Below are positions 3,636-32,095 of a DNA stretch of 34,352 nt, in pieces. The stretch comes from Candidatus Hebobacteria bacterium (GTDB lineage Bacteria; Armatimonadota; Hebobacteria; Hebobacterales; Hebobacteraceae): the NCBI GenBank assembly GCA_029821885.1, contig JALGXV010000005.1, forward strand, positions 1-34,352. Reading direction: 5' to 3'. The notes below the pieces were generated by a model. That model saw only the letters and a program-made list of their open reading frames with translations. It was not told the origin of the DNA and searched no databases. A program made the position numbers and the translations under genes. Within the stretch, counting starts at the first letter, position 1. Each line of letters begins with the position of its first letter.

Positions 3636-3965
3636 TCAGAGCTTCTCCGCTCGCTCGACGTTCAGCACGAAGACCGTAGCGCCGCCAACCTGCACCTTGA
3701 CAGGGTTGGGGATACAGGTGCCGATGGGCTCAATCGTCGGTGGGAAGACGTTGACCAGCTGCTCGCGGGTCTTCGAATGGGCCGCGATGACCTCGATGAC
3801 TTCGTCGACTTGGTCCTCATCCACCCCGATGAGGAACGTCACGTTCCCCTCGCGGAGAAGCCCGCCCGTGGTCGCGATGTTGGTGAACTTGTAGCCTCTC
3901 TCGAGCAGCGCGTCAGTGACCTTCCGCTGGTCCTTATCCTGGACGACCGCGATGACGAGCTTCAT
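3636..3965 (-). CDS. darA: Cyclic-di-AMP receptor DarA/PstA (YaaQ family)
   Basis: 109 aa, the exact usual length of this PII-like c-di-AMP binding family. The N-terminus MKLVIAVVQDKD, the loop TTGGLLREGNVTFLIG and the helix VDEVIEVI are characteristic. The start ATG overlaps the tmk stop as ATGA (3962-3965), so translation is likely coupled. The family is a trimeric signal receptor whose downstream target is poorly understood. Its position between tmk and holB is conserved in Bacillus and relatives, and it implies that this organism makes c-di-AMP, although no cyclase is in the window. Confidence 0.93.
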   Translation of the reverse strand: MKLVIAVVQDKDQRKVTDALLERGYKFTNIATTGGLLREGNVTFLIGVDEDQVDEVIEVIAAHSKTREQLVNVFPPTIEPIGTCIPNPVKVQVGGATVFVLNVERAEKL

Positions 3966-4618: not shown

Positions 4619-5826
4619 CCCATCGATATCTGCGTGTCGGAGCCGTCCGCCACCGCCTTGCCGTAGCGGCCCCCGCCACCGGCCAGGAGCGGCAGCGCCC
4701 CTTCTCGCGCCTGGACGATCAGATCGGCCAGCTTCTTCCCCACAACCAACTCCAATTCCCCGCGATCAGTCCCATGGAGGACGTTCATTTCCGTGCCAAA
4801 ACGGTTCAGCAGCCGTCCCAGCGACACGGCCCCGATCCCCGGCAGGAACTGCAGTGGCACCTGGTAGTTGTACCGGGGCCTGTGACCGGGCGGCCGCGGC
4901 TCAGCATAGTCCGCGATCTCGGCGATTCGGTCGAGCACTCCCTTGACGATCCGCTCGCCCCCGCAGACGGGACAGAGAATAGCAGGCGGGTCGGCATGAG
5001 CTATCTGCTCGCACTGGAGGCAGAAGGTCCTGTGGTACTTCCCCAGACGTGGGTCGAGCCCGTAGTTCGCCATCACCTTGCGTCCTCGCTCCCGCCGCAA
5101 GGCCCGGACCACCTCCTGGAAACTGGCTTCCTCGAGCCAGAGGAGGTTGTACTCGCGAGCGATCTTGGGAAGGGAGTGGGCATCGGAGTTCGAGAGGAGG
5201 GTCAGCTCCTTCAGCTCGCCGATCCGATCGGCCAGATGGCTGTCCGCGCTCAGCCCCAGTTCCAGGGCCGCAAGATGAGTGGTTCCCCCGTCGCCGAACA
5301 TCTCGGACAGGCGCCGCCCGCAGCTTCCATAGGGGCTCTTGTGTGGCGTGAAGGCATGCGCCGGCACGAACACCCCGCCGGCTGCGGTGGCCATCCGGAG
5401 CAGATCGCGCGCTGGCGCCCGGCAGCGCTGGGAACTGAGATCAAGGTTGGTCACCAAACGCCGCAGGAAGCCAACGAAGACCTCGAGCTGGTCGCGATGC
5501 GCGAAGTAGGAGATGTGGTGCGAGGCGCTGCCATCCTCCTCCACCGTCTCCAGCTCGCAGCCCAGAACAATGGTGGTCGAGCCGCGATAGCGCAGGCCGC
5601 CGCTGGGGAGCTCTACCATCTCGCCGGAGTCGACCAGAGCGTCGATGTCCTGCATCACGGCGGGAGAGCCGCAGTCGATGACTCCCGCGATATCGATGCC
5701 CTTCCGAGTGGCGCATTCCTTCGCTATGTTCTCGAAGGTGAGGTCGCGGGCGGCCGTGATCTTGACCGGTCGCCCGGCGCTGGTCCGCCCTATATGGATG
5801 TGGAGATCGGCATAGAACGTGCGCAT
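4612..5826 (-). CDS. Endonuclease Q-like DNA repair nuclease (PHP domain)
   Basis: 404 aa. The N-terminal PHP metal-dependent domain shows DLHIH (His9, His11), GCELET (Glu91), PAHAFTPHKS (His157) and SNSDAHS (Asp215, His217). A zinc-ribbon follows with Cys269, Cys272, Cys285 and Cys288. The C-terminus has a helix-hairpin-helix-like LPGIGAVSLGRLL. This order matches EndoQ of Thermococcales and some Bacillus (YqxK), which nicks DNA 5' of deaminated bases (uracil, hypoxanthine, xanthine) and abasic sites. The start ATG at 5826 lacks a strong ribosome site but begins exactly at the conserved PHP motif. It sits between udk and tmk and close to dut. Confidence 0.88.
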   Translation of the reverse strand: MRTFYADLHIHIGRTSAGRPVKITAARDLTFENIAKECATRKGIDIAGVIDCGSPAVMQDIDALVDSGEMVELPSGGLRYRGSTTIVLGCELETVEEDGSASHHISYFAHRDQLEVFVGFLRRLVTNLDLSSQRCRAPARDLLRMATAAGGVFVPAHAFTPHKSPYGSCGRRLSEMFGDGGTTHLAALELGLSADSHLADRIGELKELTLLSNSDAHSLPKIAREYNLLWLEEASFQEVVRALRRERGRKVMANYGLDPRLGKYHRTFCLQCEQIAHADPPAILCPVCGGERIVKGVLDRIAEIADYAEPRPPGHRPRYNYQVPLQFLPGIGAVSLGRLLNRFGTEMNVLHGTDRGELELVVGKKLADLIVQAREGALPLLAGGGGRYGKAVADGSDTQISMGW

Positions 5827-27568: not shown

Positions 27569-27666
27569 GATGTCCCGATAATGGCAAACCCGTCGAAAGA
27601 CGGGGACGCAAAGCCATGGATCTAAGGCTCTCCGGAGCTAAGACTGCCAGGCTGCCGAAGGAGATC
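27569..27666 (+). promoter_or_regulatory. Cyclic-di-GMP-I (GEMM-I) riboswitch aptamer
   Basis: The core GGCAAACC (27583-27590), the GAAA-capped P2 hairpin CCCGTCGAAAGACGGG (27589-27604), GACGCAAAGCC (27604-27614) and the tetraloop-receptor side (ATCTAAG, 27620-27626), then the P3 hairpin and CTGCCAGGCTGCCGAA (27644-27659), match the GEMM-I/Vc2 layout segment by segment. P1 closes between GATgTCC (27569-27575) and GGAgATC (27660-27666). The family binds c-di-GMP and commonly controls pili, flagella and surface adhesion genes. It is on the same strand as the pilin-like genes that begin about 200 nt downstream, and a strong terminator lies between. Confidence 0.95.
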
Positions 27667-27679
27667 TGGTTGAATCTCC
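27660..27679 (+). promoter_or_regulatory. Alternative hairpin competing with riboswitch P1
   Basis: GGAGAT (27660-27665), the 3' strand of aptamer P1, can instead pair perfectly with ATCTCC (27674-27679). The two structures are mutually exclusive. Downstream CCCCC/GGGGG (27680-27695 region) and CTCCCC/GGGGAG (27676-27681/27705-27710) pairings are available when P1 is formed. How this connects to the terminator at 27752 is not evident. Confidence 0.5.
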
Positions 27680-27751
27680 CCCCCTTGACAGGGGGTGGCG
27701 GCCCGGGGAGCCGATCGACCTGGTCTTCTTTTCTGTGTGTTCGCGTTAAGC

Positions 27752-27798
27752 AAGACCCGTTCTGAGAGGCCGTGAGGCTCTCCGGGACGGGTCTTTTT
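27752..27798 (+). terminator. Strong intrinsic terminator upstream of the pilin-like genes
   Basis: AAGACCCGT (27752-27760) pairs with ACGGGTCTT (27787-27795), with an inner GAGAG..CTCTC stem and a short loop, followed by a T run to 27798. It separates the c-di-GMP aptamer from the first gene and is its probable expression platform. Alternatively it merely ends an unregulated short RNA. Confidence 0.9.
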
Positions 27799-27868
27799 CG
27801 TTTGCGCATGTTAACTAAGCTGACCGACCATGGAACAAGTACCGTCAAAAGCGAGAGCAGGCGGCTCG

Positions 27869-28381
27869 ATGAAGGCACGGCGGCGAGCAGCACGCAGCCC
27901 TGGGTATCGGCACGCGGCTGCCACAATGCCCGGTTTGCTACTGGCAGCGGGCGTGGCGGTCATTCTCCTTTCGCTGCCGGCCGGCGCCGATTCGGCCAGG
28001 CTGACGCTGGACGTCGCTGCGCTCTCCTTCCCGTCCGCAGATCCGGACTCTGTCCCACAGGTCAGCGCGATCGAGAATCCGGTGACGGTGGAGGTCACGG
28101 TTCGGTCGGGCAGTCCGTCGATCGTCGACCTGACCGTGCTCTCCTCTGGAGACCTGCGATCGGGGGCCGATGTCATCCCGATCGACCGCGTGAGTTGGAC
28201 GGCGAACGGCGATGGGTTCACATCGGGCGTGCTCAGCAGAGCTGACCCGCAGCCCGTCGGGCAGTGGTTCGGCAAGAGAGTGAACGCAGCTGGCAGTCTT
28301 TGGTTTCAGCTGGAGAACTCGTGGGACTATGCCACGGGCTCCTACAGTCAGACTGTTGTATATACCCTGGTCGCGTACTGA
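27869..28381 (+). CDS. Secreted pilin-like subunit 1
   Basis: 170 aa from ATG 27869 (AGGCGG 4 nt upstream); an ATG at 27830 in the same frame would add 13 residues without a ribosome site. A basic n-region and hydrophobic stretch (PGLLLAAGVAVILLSLPAGA) form a long signal peptide. The mature part is a beta-rich domain of about 130 residues sharing with the next gene ADPD-V, ENPV-V-V, SW/TW-TA-G-GF and the terminal NSWDY--GSYSQTVVYTL. The C-terminal alternating hydrophobic strand resembles subunits of archaic chaperone-usher fibres and spore-coat-U-like proteins. It is the first gene behind the riboswitch-terminator. Confidence 0.75.
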   Translation: MKARRRAARSPGYRHAAATMPGLLLAAGVAVILLSLPAGADSARLTLDVAALSFPSADPDSVPQVSAIENPVTVEVTVRSGSPSIVDLTVLSSGDLRSGADVIPIDRVSWTANGDGFTSGVLSRADPQPVGQWFGKRVNAAGSLWFQLENSWDYATGSYSQTVVYTLVAY

Positions 28382-28415
28382 CCAGATTGAAGATCCTTAG
28401 AGTGGAGGGTGAGAG

Positions 28416-28922
28416 ATGAGAAAGCTGATAGGTGCAACGATAGTAGCGGTCGCCTACGTTGCGCTCATATGCGCGGGCACGCCCGCGGGAGCTGCAACAG
28501 ATCAGCAGACGTTGACGATCAACGCCACCGTGTCGGCGAAGGCGAAGCTGACGCTTGGCGTGGCGGCCATCAACTTCGGAGACGCCGATCCGGATGTCGT
28601 GGCGTCCATAGCGGCCGGCGAGAACCCGGTTTCCGTGACGGTGAAGGCACAGACTGCCGCTGCGTCCGCGGTGACGCTGACCGTGCAGGCCAACGGCGAT
28701 CTCGACTCCGGCACTGACACGATCGCCATCACAAATGTCACATGGACCGCGACAGGAGCCGGCTTCGCGGGCGGCACGATGGATACCGTCGCCCAGTCGG
28801 CTGGTTCCTGGACCGGCCCCGGCCGCAGAGACGGCACGTTCTCCTACTGGCTGGCCAATAGCTGGGACTACCCGCCGGGGAGTTACTCGCAGACGGTCGT
28901 CTACACGCTGACCGCACCGTAG
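28416..28922 (+). CDS. Secreted pilin-like subunit 2
   Basis: 168 aa, paralogue of the preceding gene. Signal peptide 1-26 (cleavage after AGA), then a Thr/Ala/Val-rich beta domain with TINATVSAKAKLTLGVAAINFG, GENPVSVTVKA and the closing WLANSWDYPPGSYSQTVVYTLTAP. GGAGGGTGAGAG precedes the ATG, a better ribosome site than that of subunit 1. The gap to gene 1 is 34 nt. I infer a surface-fibre subunit from the pair, the Thr-rich beta composition and the adjacent chaperone and usher candidates; no direct family match was made. Confidence 0.75.
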   Translation: MRKLIGATIVAVAYVALICAGTPAGAATDQQTLTINATVSAKAKLTLGVAAINFGDADPDVVASIAAGENPVSVTVKAQTAAASAVTLTVQANGDLDSGTDTIAITNVTWTATGAGFAGGTMDTVAQSAGSWTGPGRRDGTFSYWLANSWDYPPGSYSQTVVYTLTAP

Positions 28923-28946
28923 CCCGCCCCCGTGGCTAACGCCCTA

Positions 28947-28986
28947 TGTGCCGGAGGCGGAGCGCGGAAGCGCCGCCTCCGGCACA
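28947..28986 (+). other. Long perfect intercistronic hairpin
   Basis: TGTGCCGGAGGCGG (28947-28960) pairs perfectly over 14 bp with CCGCCTCCGGCACA (28973-28986); the loop adds CGC-GGAA-GCG. No T-run follows. It sits between the second pilin-like gene and the chaperone gene, where such hairpins often stabilise or process the upstream mRNA. A second small TCCCC/GGGGA hairpin ends just before the chaperone ribosome site. Confidence 0.85.
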
Positions 28987-29033
28987 GGGGCGACTGAGTC
29001 CCCAACAGATGGGGAGTCAGGAGGCTCGAGAGA

Positions 29034-29873
29034 ATGTTCAGAGTCATGACTGGTTACATACTGAGTGGTCTCGTGGTAGGCGCCATGCTCGTCCTGTCCG
29101 GCGGCACGGCGGCTGCAGGAGTGTGCTCCTTTGAGGTGTCTCCTCTGACGATGGAGATACAGATCGAGCCCGGCCGTGCCTACACGGGCACCATCGATGT
29201 CACGAACACGGGTGAAGAGGCCGAGCACATCCATGTCTACTCCCAAGACTGGACCCTGAAGCCAGATGGCGTCGTTGTGTTTCTTCCTGCCGGCAAGACT
29301 CCGGGATCGGCCAGCACCTGGGTGCAGCTCATCCCGAGCGAACTCGACCTCGAGCCGGGTCAGACGCAGCGGGTGCGGTATACGATCCGCGTTCCGACCC
29401 AGGCCGCCGGCGAAGCGCGTACTGCAGTGATACTTGAAGCCGAACCACGGGAGCTGTCGATGCCCGGAGGCCCATCCCGCCTGGTCCCGCGGATCGGCAC
29501 GATCATATACGTCCAGTGCGGACCGAAGGACCCTGCGCGGGTACGCGCGGTCCGGTTCGATGTTGACCGGAGCGGGGGCACACTGGCCGTCGAGAACCTC
29601 GGAACGTCCCATCTCCGCTTCAAGGGATATCTTGAGATCCGGGATCAGCGAGGTGCGCTCGTGCGACGCCAGGACCTGAACCCATTCGTCGTTCTGCCCG
29701 CCCCCTTCAACCGCCGCAGTGGGCGACTCGGCCCGGAGGTCCTGTCTGGATTGCCCGCCGGGCGCTATCAGATCACGGCCATCCTCGACCATGGCGGAGA
29801 TGCTCTGCTCGGTGCCCGAATTGAGACCGAACTCGGGCCGGAGCCGCCGATTCAGGTGGCCGGTGAGCCATGA
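29034..29873 (+). CDS. PapD-like periplasmic chaperone
   Basis: 279 aa, signal peptide 1-28. Residues 31-137 read as the N-terminal Ig domain of pilus chaperones: SFEVSPLTMEIQIEPGRAYTG, IDVTNTGEEAEHIHVY, STWVQLIPSELDLEPGQTQRV, YTIRVP and ARTAVILEAEP. The second half (150-279) is a second beta domain with less resemblance. AGGAGG lies 9 nt before ATG 29034; the stop overlaps the usher-like start (ATGA). The length is slightly more than that of classical FGS/FGL chaperones (about 230-250). Function as a subunit chaperone is inferred from domain and context. Confidence 0.75.
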   Translation: MFRVMTGYILSGLVVGAMLVLSGGTAAAGVCSFEVSPLTMEIQIEPGRAYTGTIDVTNTGEEAEHIHVYSQDWTLKPDGVVVFLPAGKTPGSASTWVQLIPSELDLEPGQTQRVRYTIRVPTQAAGEARTAVILEAEPRELSMPGGPSRLVPRIGTIIYVQCGPKDPARVRAVRFDVDRSGGTLAVENLGTSHLRFKGYLEIRDQRGALVRRQDLNPFVVLPAPFNRRSGRLGPEVLSGLPAGRYQITAILDHGGDALLGARIETELGPEPPIQVAGEP

Positions 29874-32095
29874 TGTCTCGGGCCGCAGGCACAGCTCTCG
29901 GGGTGCTGTTTCTCGCCTGCGTCGGACTGCCTGCACTATCCGATGAGGCGATCCCGGAGCGACGGCCGGCCCACCAGCAAGCATTCAAGCTGCCGGAGCC
30001 GCGCGACCTCGGCGACGGCCCGAGATTCCCACTTTCTGAGCTGGGGGCTCGGTTCGGTATCATCGTCACCGTTGTCGACGAGAACGTCCACATCATCCAC
30101 CGCGACGGGAGCGAGCTCAGGCTAAGGGCGTCCTCACCCGGCGAGAGACCACTGGAACTGGGGAAGGCAGAGATTCTGGTCAGCAATGCCGACGTCTGGG
30201 CTCGCGCCAAGGATGTGCCGCGACTGCTAGGACTTCCGGGAACACTGGATGCTGACGCACGAGAGATGACGGTGAGCCTGCCGCCGGACGAGGCACAGCC
30301 GGTGGAAACCTTCCTGGTGGCGAAGCCGGTGGTTCTTTCAGCTCCTCGGAAGCGCGGGCAAACCGCGCGAGCAAGACGGCCGCGCCCCGACAGCCGCGCG
30401 GGCAGGGATAGCTCCGGCCTGGTCACCGAGGTGATGACCGGCGACACGAGTCTCGGCGTTTCGCACTTGTCCCTCCTCAACAGCCCGGGCATGACCGGCG
30501 TCTACCAGCAGGTAACCAGGCCCGCCTCCTCGGATGCCCACCGCACCAGTCGGGACCTCGACCCGCAGTCACCGGTCCGGCACACGGTGGCCCAGTTCTC
30601 AATGGAGATGCACGAAGAGGACCGAGTCTACGCCGCGGGAGACGTGTTCGATCCCCTCTGCGGGACGGCCACCGGCTTCGAGATGCGCACCGCGGTGAAC
30701 GAGGATGCCTGGATTGGCGCCGCGGTCCTTGTGCCCAATGATTCCGTGCGAGAGGATGCGGAAGGTCAGGTCTCCCTGCGAGCCGCGGCCCCAGTCGGGC
30801 CGCACGTGAGCACGGATCTGGCGGTCTCGCTGGATGGTTCGTACAGCCTCTCAGGTCAGTGGCGGCGAGGCAGCACCGCGCTTCGCTCCTCCATCCTCGA
30901 CCGCGCTGACCTCTCTCGGCGCGACGTCTCAGTCGAGCATCAGATCGCCCGGTCAATCCGAGGGTATGCCCGCTCCTCCGAGCTGCAAGGCCTGTACGGA
31001 GCGCGTGCCGATCTCCTGGGTGCGGAGTGGCGACTCGGGAAGGCGCGTCTCGCGCTCGAGCGGACGCGGGGTGTCTCTGGCGACGAGGTCTGGGGCACCG
31101 ACGCCGTCTCCATGTCTCTCCTCCGGGGCCGCTCCGCCAGTACCATCAGGTACCTTGTGCCGCGCGAGGCGGACGGCAGATCCGGGCTCGAATGGTTCGT
31201 CAGCCGATTTCATCCCTCTGGCAGGCAGGTCTTCTTCAGCTCCTCGGCCCCAAGCACTGGAACGGCTCCGACTGACCGCACCTATCGTGTCGGGACATCA
31301 TGGCCCGTCGGGCAGGGCCTGCGGCTGCGCGCCGCTCTGGGATGGGACAGCGAGGAGCTGCACCCGGAGGCCAAGATGGAGTGGCGTCCCTCGCGGGACA
31401 AGGTCATCACACTCCAGTATGGGCCGTTCGACATGGATGCATCGGGCGGCGCCCTCGACACGGCCATCGTGCTCCAGGCCAGCATGGCCTTCGGCGGCAC
31501 GGCCCGCGAGCCGCATGGCACCGGTCGCGTGGTGGGTCAAGTCAGAGATGACAGCGGCCAAGGAGTCGGGGACGTGGCCGTCGTGCTCGAAGAAGTGACC
31601 GTGACCTTCACGCGATCCGATGGGACCTTTGAGTTCCGCGGCGTCAAGCCCGGCCGCCAGATCGTCAAGATCGACGACAACAGGCTCCACGCCGACCTCG
31701 GCGGCCAGTTGCGGCCCCGCGTCGTGTTCGTGAGCGAGAACGGGACCGAGAGCGCCGACTTCGTGGTGACTCGGCTCTGTCGCATATCGGGCGGGGTCTA
31801 TGTCCGATCGGCCGACGGCACACTACGCGAACCATTGCCAGATGCCGTCGTGCAGCTCAGCGACGGCCGCCTCGCGAGAACCAACAGCCAGGGGCGCTAC
31901 AGCTTCGTCGGCCTTGGGCCGGGCCGCTACACCGTTTCGCTTGCCTCCAGCATGGACGTCTCGACCCTGCGCCCGCTGGCGCCAACATCCTGGTCGTTCA
32001 GGTTGCAGCCGGGCGACGAGGTCGACGGCGCCGACTTCACCTTCGAGCGTAGAGAACGGCCTGTCATCTTCGGCTTCCTCACAACCGAGCAGTAG
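29870..32095 (+). CDS. Usher-like outer-membrane protein, highly divergent
   Basis: 741 aa. Signal peptide 1-24. Residues 51-138 (PLSELGARFGIIVTVVDENV, then LELGKAEILVSNADVW and DVPRLLGLPGTLD) resemble a copper amine oxidase N-terminal-like stalk domain. A Pro/Arg-rich linker (160-185) leads to a beta-strand-rich central region (about 240-545) with the GDVFDPLCGTATGFEMRTA motif and alternating polar/apolar strands like an outer-membrane barrel. Two carboxypeptidase-regulatory/SpaA-like beta domains (about 551-635 and 636-725; SDGTFEFRGVKPGR, NSQGRYSFVGLGPGRY) close the protein. This could be a fibre usher, reduced and rearranged compared with FimD/PapC (about 800-850 aa), or an anchored adhesin. 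It is coupled to the chaperone by a 4-nt overlap. Confidence 0.7.
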   Translation: MMSRAAGTALGVLFLACVGLPALSDEAIPERRPAHQQAFKLPEPRDLGDGPRFPLSELGARFGIIVTVVDENVHIIHRDGSELRLRASSPGERPLELGKAEILVSNADVWARAKDVPRLLGLPGTLDADAREMTVSLPPDEAQPVETFLVAKPVVLSAPRKRGQTARARRPRPDSRAGRDSSGLVTEVMTGDTSLGVSHLSLLNSPGMTGVYQQVTRPASSDAHRTSRDLDPQSPVRHTVAQFSMEMHEEDRVYAAGDVFDPLCGTATGFEMRTAVNEDAWIGAAVLVPNDSVREDAEGQVSLRAAAPVGPHVSTDLAVSLDGSYSLSGQWRRGSTALRSSILDRADLSRRDVSVEHQIARSIRGYARSSELQGLYGARADLLGAEWRLGKARLALERTRGVSGDEVWGTDAVSMSLLRGRSASTIRYLVPREADGRSGLEWFVSRFHPSGRQVFFSSSAPSTGTAPTDRTYRVGTSWPVGQGLRLRAALGWDSEELHPEAKMEWRPSRDKVITLQYGPFDMDASGGALDTAIVLQASMAFGGTAREPHGTGRVVGQVRDDSGQGVGDVAVVLEEVTVTFTRSDGTFEFRGVKPGRQIVKIDDNRLHADLGGQLRPRVVFVSENGTESADFVVTRLCRISGGVYVRSADGTLREPLPDAVVQLSDGRLARTNSQGRYSFVGLGPGRYTVSLASSMDVSTLRPLAPTSWSFRLQPGDEVDGADFTFERRERPVIFGFLTTEQ

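Follow-up and report, generated by a model that had tools for sequence, protein, structure and literature searches.

Here, we analysed a window of 34,352 nucleotides (the whole stretch of DNA under study, positions 1 to 34,352 of contig JALGXV010000005.1 in the Candidatus Hebobacteria bacterium assembly GCA_029821885.1), in which an operon is best read as a chaperone-usher-type fibre locus of an undescribed branch, placed under the transcriptional control of a riboswitch for cyclic di-guanosine monophosphate (c-di-GMP) of class I, also called GEMM-I. We put the probability of this reading at about three in four. The features that carry it, namely the aptamer and terminator, the genes with their secretion signals, the recurrence of the set in other genomes, the similarity at profile level of the chaperone to fimbrial chaperones and of the usher-like protein to ushers, and the presence or absence of an N-terminal extension in the subunits, were all computed here. 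An earlier note, made from the letters of the window alone, had proposed the same core combination of a GEMM-I switch with a divergent chaperone-usher-type locus, and the Rfam match, the conservation, the profile comparisons and the division of the subunits into tip and shaft types all agree with it.

A conserved set of subunit, chaperone and usher-like genes

Four genes on the forward strand make up the operon. P0001 (27869–28381, with an alternative start of the open reading frame at 27830) and P0002 (28416–28922) encode secreted, beta-rich proteins of 170 and 168 residues, predicted to be the tip or initiating subunit and the polymerising shaft subunit, respectively. P0003 (29034–29873) encodes a periplasmic chaperone of 279 residues with two immunoglobulin (Ig)-like domains, of the PapD/EcpB-like kind, and P0004 (29870–32095) an outer-membrane protein of 741 residues with profile similarity to ushers. 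Each of the four proteins begins with a hydrophobic, signal-peptide-like stretch, and none contains a further stretch resembling a transmembrane helix. The two subunits share 47–51% identity, which bears out the earlier description of them as secreted paralogues. P0004 has a counterpart with 92% identity in Candidatus Hebobacterum abditum, a member of the same genus as the window genome.

The spread of the set was assessed in 291 Armatimonadota genomes, largely draft or metagenome-assembled, and in a plasmid collection. Searching the former with a five-sequence chaperone profile (E < 1e-40) recovered the chaperone in 21 genomes, and an usher-like gene adjoins it in 21 loci (the window and 20 further ones), accompanied by one to several genes for small, secreted, beta-rich proteins. 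The same subunit–chaperone–usher set is found on five Deinococcus plasmids (L102–L106), whose chaperones score 143–163 bits against the Armatimonadota profile and three of whose large proteins score 46–121 bits against the Armatimonadota usher profile. These copies are annotated as hypothetical or carboxypeptidase-regulatory-like, and the D. deserti chaperone as a FimB/Mfa2 family fimbrial subunit. Hence the gene set whose order the note had proposed to look for in related genomes does recur there, while the restriction to the lineage of the window that it had implied does not hold. In the library searched, we found no literature linking chaperone-usher systems with Armatimonadota.

Its recurrence in other genomes shows that the set is no fortuitous run of open reading frames. 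The idea that unrelated secreted proteins merely lie together here, P0004 being an ordinary outer-membrane protein with carboxypeptidase-regulatory domains, can point to the fact that CarboxypepD_reg is the only Pfam family above cut-off in the window proteins; it is already contradicted by a set kept across two phyla and by the adjacency of chaperone and usher-like genes in 21 loci, and we consider it hardly credible.

Some loci depart from the layout seen in the window. In one (L062, 2463–6846), a tandem array of about seven paralogous subunit genes precedes a single chaperone and usher. Elsewhere in the window genome (L024, 1385–3121 of G000:C153), a 578-residue protein with two repeats related to P0003 adjoins a secretin/STN-like protein of 125 residues, and similar double-repeat proteins of 560–650 residues occur in many Armatimonadota; we weighed L024 as a possible second system in this genome and discarded the idea, as no usher adjoins it.

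The earlier claim that the genes lie on one strand with short gaps or overlaps stands with regard to their common direction and to the start of P0004, which overlaps the stop of P0003 by four bases (ATGA). It does not extend to the interval between P0002 and P0003, which measures 111 bases and contains a strong hairpin that the note had not listed (28947–28986, forward strand, 17-nt arms). Among the operon loci of the same family, counterparts lie at 5078–5117 in L005 and at 3815–3860 in L025, so that the position between the shaft-subunit and chaperone genes is kept while the sequence in L025 is unrelated; the z value is −8.1 in the window, with −4.4 and −4.1 as the further values across the three loci. 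This hairpin probably keeps the mRNA of the subunits above that of the chaperone and usher, providing more subunit than usher.

Chaperone, usher-like protein and subunits

The chaperone family is built of two Ig-like domains, in which S, W, P, G and GxY positions are invariant. When a profile of 21 of them was aligned with EcpB/EcpE using hhalign, the match reached a probability of 89% (E 2.4e-6, 179 columns) against 0.1% for the reversed profile, with the proviso that these and the other pairwise profile probabilities given here are not database E-values. EcpB/EcpE were the best of 32 Escherichia coli proteins, and EcpB, YadV and EcpE were the top three among 87 E. coli open reading frames. 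With its reversed-sequence and decoy controls clean, this similarity upholds the PapD-like chaperone of the earlier note. Of the 23 chaperones, 22 have in domain 1 the proline that does not vary across the chaperone-usher superfamily (PMC4654587); in P0003 it is P101.

The usher-like protein can be followed in a comparable way. P0004 has, by eye, a Cu_amine_oxidN1-like region at about residues 47–140, a predicted beta-barrel at about 190–545, and two domains of the CarboxypepD_reg type that start at about 554 and 640. Two such C-terminal domains recur in 18 of the 19 large proteins, a few of which show weak porin or outer-membrane-protein matches; Cu_amine_oxidN1 was scored by Pfam in three of 19 relatives, and others start with NEW3-like domains. 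Against seven E. coli ushers, the usher profile gave 87.9% (E 3.2e-6, 307 columns), compared to 2.3% when reversed and at most 2% for other E. coli barrels (LptD, FhuA, BamA, FadL, BtuB, OmpC and PgaA). The aligned region spans the late barrel and the two C-terminal domains, and CooC_C was scored weakly in two of 19 ushers (E 0.062). The usher-like outer-membrane protein of the note is thereby supported at the level of profile similarity, again with clean reversed-sequence and decoy controls.

The subunits provide the most telling pattern. P0002 carries, between its signal peptide and its domain, 14 residues (ATDQQTLTINATVS) that have no counterpart in P0001 when the two are aligned, and the P0001 orthologues in L005 and L025 likewise lack this extension. 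Across the loci, a core-domain profile search found the distance from the signal-peptide core to the domain to be two-peaked, at 9–18 and 24–34 residues, and each of the 12 fully readable sites (two of them joined from two contigs of one genome, L027 with L077 and L078 with L079) encodes exactly one short subunit and one to three long ones. The core-domain profile does not cover a second subunit type present at L031, L062–L068 and L072. The extension that one subunit per site lacks measures 14–22 residues in the others, and the short subunit may lie on either side of the chaperone-usher pair. Donor-strand exchange predicts such a split, because all subunits except the tip must donate a strand; it is thus the expected pattern and, judged from the sequences, the strongest mechanistic evidence for a tip and polymerising subunits assembled in this manner. 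The subunits also stop only a few residues beyond their last predicted strand, as pilins do.

Two other identities were considered for the subunits. A C-terminal strand resembling YxxxVTWxV had raised the possibility of WxL proteins, which we abandoned in view of motif spacing and Pfam results. The NCBIfam family CPR_Pam_pilin_C covers P0002 over its full length, at E 0.063 and in one of 24 subunits, and we found no paper on a 'Pam pilus'.

On these grounds, an assembly pathway may be outlined. On reaching the periplasm, P0001 and P0002 would have an Ig fold that is not yet complete; P0003 would lend its G1 strand to them, and the resulting chaperone–subunit pairs would dock at P0004, located in the outer membrane. 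Having no strand to donate, P0001 would go first and become the tip; P0002 would polymerise behind it, the extension of each copy inserting into the groove of the preceding one, and the fibre would exit via the P0004 barrel.

Several results weigh against the fibre reading. No Pfam or NCBIfam fimbrial family scored above cut-off for any of the four window proteins. The match to ushers stems partly from generic C-terminal beta-sandwich domains, and its probability drops to 59% once the Deinococcus sequences are included. Structural models were of low confidence for both P0003 (all-beta, built from two sequences of 94% identity, mean predicted local distance difference test score, pLDDT, 49) and P0002 (four sequences, mean pLDDT 35). 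Foldseek searches with this poor P0003 model gave template-modelling scores of at most 0.32 and placed CfaA no higher than ranks 18 and 30; hits on beta-glucuronidases and phospholipases were disregarded as products of the model's low quality. Finally, among 177,635 distinct PDB sequences, the chaperone profile ranked two WxLIP entries first and YadV and EcpB third and fourth (EfmWxLIP1 of Enterococcus, E 2e-4; YadV, E 0.16; EcpB, E 0.22), so that by profile the nearest solved structures are WxLIP proteins.

This last result is what a surface complex of the WxLIP kind would predict, in which P0003, as a periplasmic relative of Gram-positive WxLIP, holds the small beta-sandwich proteins P0001 and P0002 at the surface, P0004 serves as a porin-like anchor and no fibre is polymerised. 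The similarity to EfmWxLIP1 covers both domains, PF06030 appears, below cut-off, in four of 21 members of the chaperone family, and WxLIP proteins stand at Foldseek ranks 4, 7 and 10. However, P0003 has no C-terminal membrane helix, unlike described WxLIP proteins (PMC10599100), the subunits have no Pfam WxL domain, and their two W-containing motifs are separated by about 20 residues, whereas the spacing in WxL proteins is about 68 or 106 (PMC9772566). Moreover, the same chaperone profile also finds EcpB and YadV, and a complex without polymerisation gives no reason for the rule of one short subunit with the rest long. Taken together, we regard such a complex as improbable.

The c-di-GMP-I riboswitch and its likely direction

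Upstream of P0001, at 27573–27659 on the forward strand, lies an aptamer that matches Rfam model RF01051 over its full length with a covariance-model score of 90.7 bits (E 5.5e-17), compared to a gathering score of 35, which makes its chance level negligible. The GEMM-I element claimed in the note has therefore passed the Infernal-type check proposed for it. Its binding-site stretch reads GACGCAAAGCC, with an A at the site where the c-di-GMP-I-GGC consensus has G; the window aptamer and the other three copies in the genome all carry GCAAA, not the GCGAA of that subclass. This letter makes the aptamer one of the ordinary c-di-GMP type and excludes the GGC variant (RF03167), which close relatives also match. 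By its sequence, the element is a c-di-GMP-I riboswitch, for which ligand binding and an effect on expression are predicted.

Orthologous aptamers occupy the equivalent place in L005 and L025, and consequently GEMM-I and the operon are paired in all three operon-bearing genomes of the window's family, as opposed to none of the 20 other operon neighbourhoods scanned outside it. GEMM-I itself is present in 173 of the 291 Armatimonadota genomes. The window genome encodes GGDEF and Omp85 proteins, so that the host plausibly, indeed probably, has both c-di-GMP and an outer membrane.

The three other GEMM-I copies of this genome are placed as follows. One (L022, 251–2494 of G000:C306) lies ahead of a gene for a protein combining HD-GYP, GAF and GGDEF domains, an arrangement that suggests feedback on c-di-GMP turnover. 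Another (L023, 4347–8579 of G000:C112) lies ahead of an operon with prepilin, PilX_N and ice-binding-like adhesive domains, and the remaining copy precedes an orphan gene for a protein of 163 residues. With signalling and surface genes as targets, this would be a normal-looking c-di-GMP regulon.

Between the aptamer and P0001, the strong terminator described in the note is found as a hairpin at 27752–27795 followed by a T run, recovered from both the sequence and the folds. Two further stretches on the same strand may be involved in switching. Strand A (GGCTCTCCGG, 27626–27635) is the 5′ arm of aptamer helix P3, and strand B (CCCGGGGAGCC, 27702–27712) could base-pair either with strand A or with the terminator 3′ arm (27776–27786). 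In the ligand-free minimum-energy fold of the leader, strands A and B pair and the terminator is intact. In co-transcriptional folds of the leaders from the window, L005 and L025, a closed aptamer leaves strand B unpaired, and it captures the emerging terminator 3′ arm; across these three diverged leaders, that arm is paired upstream at 0.73–0.85 with the aptamer closed versus 0.00–0.36 otherwise. From these folds we infer the switching role of strands A and B. As c-di-GMP rises, the aptamer would close and release strand B, which would trap the terminator 3′ arm as it emerges and permit transcription to read through. A fibre made at high c-di-GMP in this way would serve attachment or biofilm formation.

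An ON switch is accordingly the direction we favour, with moderate confidence, and co-transcriptional folding speaks for it weakly. Weighing against it, the terminator prevails in both states of the full-length leader, which reduces the ON direction to a kinetic hint and makes it a preference, not a result. A competing antiterminator can also be drawn, in which a GGTCTTC strand pairs with AAGACC. The closed-aptamer fold pairs this GGTCTTC strand upstream, as an OFF switch would require, in which c-di-GMP closes the aptamer, the terminator forms and the fibre is made at low c-di-GMP; the terminator as the final state in both folds is equally in line with such a switch. Both directions are known among GEMM-type riboswitches, and Cd1 is a c-di-GMP OFF switch (PMC9262584). 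Nevertheless, it is only in the closed-aptamer fold that trapping of the 3′ arm delays the terminator, and this in three diverged leaders. Furthermore, c-di-GMP generally promotes attachment, and hence we think the OFF direction possible, if clearly the less likely one.

Placement among chaperone-usher systems

As regards general features, the locus has the chaperone-usher gene set (the usher by profile similarity), the domain-1 proline and the tip/shaft rule. Missing, in contrast, are a PF00577 usher, the 24-strand barrel with plug that is general to the pathway, and the hallmarks of individual clades: a Pfam match to PapD, subunits of the spore-coat-U (SCPU) type and the anchoring arginine. 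On this combination, we treat the locus as a chaperone-usher-like system that is assigned to none of the three described clades. The earlier remark that the subunits and usher are too divergent for routine annotation is in keeping with this; no library names the chaperone or subunits.

A narrower placement would make the locus a genuine but diverged representative of the archaic or alternative clade, with ordinary mechanism and the same function. It would fit the fact that the nearest E. coli relatives of the chaperone, EcpB/EcpE, belong to the alternative ECP system and that Deinococcus-Thermus is among the groups with reported archaic systems (PMC4654587). Yet the carboxylate-anchoring arginine of domain 1, described as the feature that best characterises archaic and alternative chaperones (PMC4654587), gives way to tryptophan at the nearest column in 20 of 23 members; an arginine near this position is confined to the window clade and is shifted by one column in the EcpE alignment. 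The usher family PF00577 has no match in P0004 and stays below detection both in the Deinococcus homologues examined and in 289 of the 291 Armatimonadota genomes; it exceeds the cut-off in one of the 291, a genome (L084/L086, G234:C105) listed as 6% contaminated. The N-terminal domain of the usher is of another type, and the barrel segment is roughly estimated at 360 residues with 19–23 amphipathic peaks, compared to 526 residues and 27 peaks in FimD. A place within either clade therefore seems unlikely to us. As for the classical clade, Pfam detected PapD_N in none of 21 chaperones and PapD_C in one of them (E 0.003).

More tentatively, and at less than even odds, the set may represent a fourth major chaperone-usher clade that is at home in Armatimonadota and Deinococcota and is marked by a smaller and perhaps plug-less barrel, a replaced usher N-terminal domain, a chaperone linking fimbrial chaperones with WxLIP, and, in the window's family, direct switching by c-di-GMP at the RNA level. 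The archaic type reaches Cyanobacteria and Deinococcus-Thermus, and the pili have been described mainly from Proteobacteria (PMC4654587); a separate, unannotated branch in Armatimonadota and Deinococcus would, if true, extend the known range of the pathway and offer a simpler usher for comparison. The similarity of the chaperone profile to WxLIP hints at a shared origin, and the common descent of fimbrial chaperones and Gram-positive WxLIP would become testable. Direct riboswitch control would provide a short path from c-di-GMP to fibre production, and the clean division into tip and shaft makes donor-strand exchange testable using two small proteins.

Compared with the c-di-GMP-I riboswitches Vc2 and Cd1, the window aptamer likewise matches the full-length model and retains the binding-site A; it differs in its target, a chaperone-usher-type operon, and judged by title and abstract none of the eight papers in the library searched that mention chaperone-usher, riboswitch and c-di-GMP together describes riboswitch control of such an operon. 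Gram-positive WxL/WxLIP clusters share with the locus a chaperone profile that matches EfmWxLIP1 across both Ig-like domains, whereas P0003 is unanchored, the subunits lack a WxL domain and the operon includes an outer-membrane protein. The archaic pathway (Csu, CupE) resembles it in general layout, in its association with biofilms and in its reported presence in Deinococcus-Thermus and Cyanobacteria (PMC4654587), and differs in the PF00577 match of its usher and in its SCPU domain, which was matched by none of 24 subunits here. The alternative pathway (ECP, with EcpA–E, and the class 5 system CFA/I, with CfaA) has several features in common with the locus: among E. coli proteins the P0003 profile lies nearest to EcpB/EcpE, CfaA is among the small Foldseek hits, and N-terminal extensions, an usher-like barrel with C-terminal domains and the weak CooC_C score complete the resemblance. 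The locus nevertheless stands apart from it in the lack of a conserved anchoring arginine, in a predicted tip that is a single-domain subunit without extension, and in the N-terminal domain of the usher, the size of the barrel and the host phyla.

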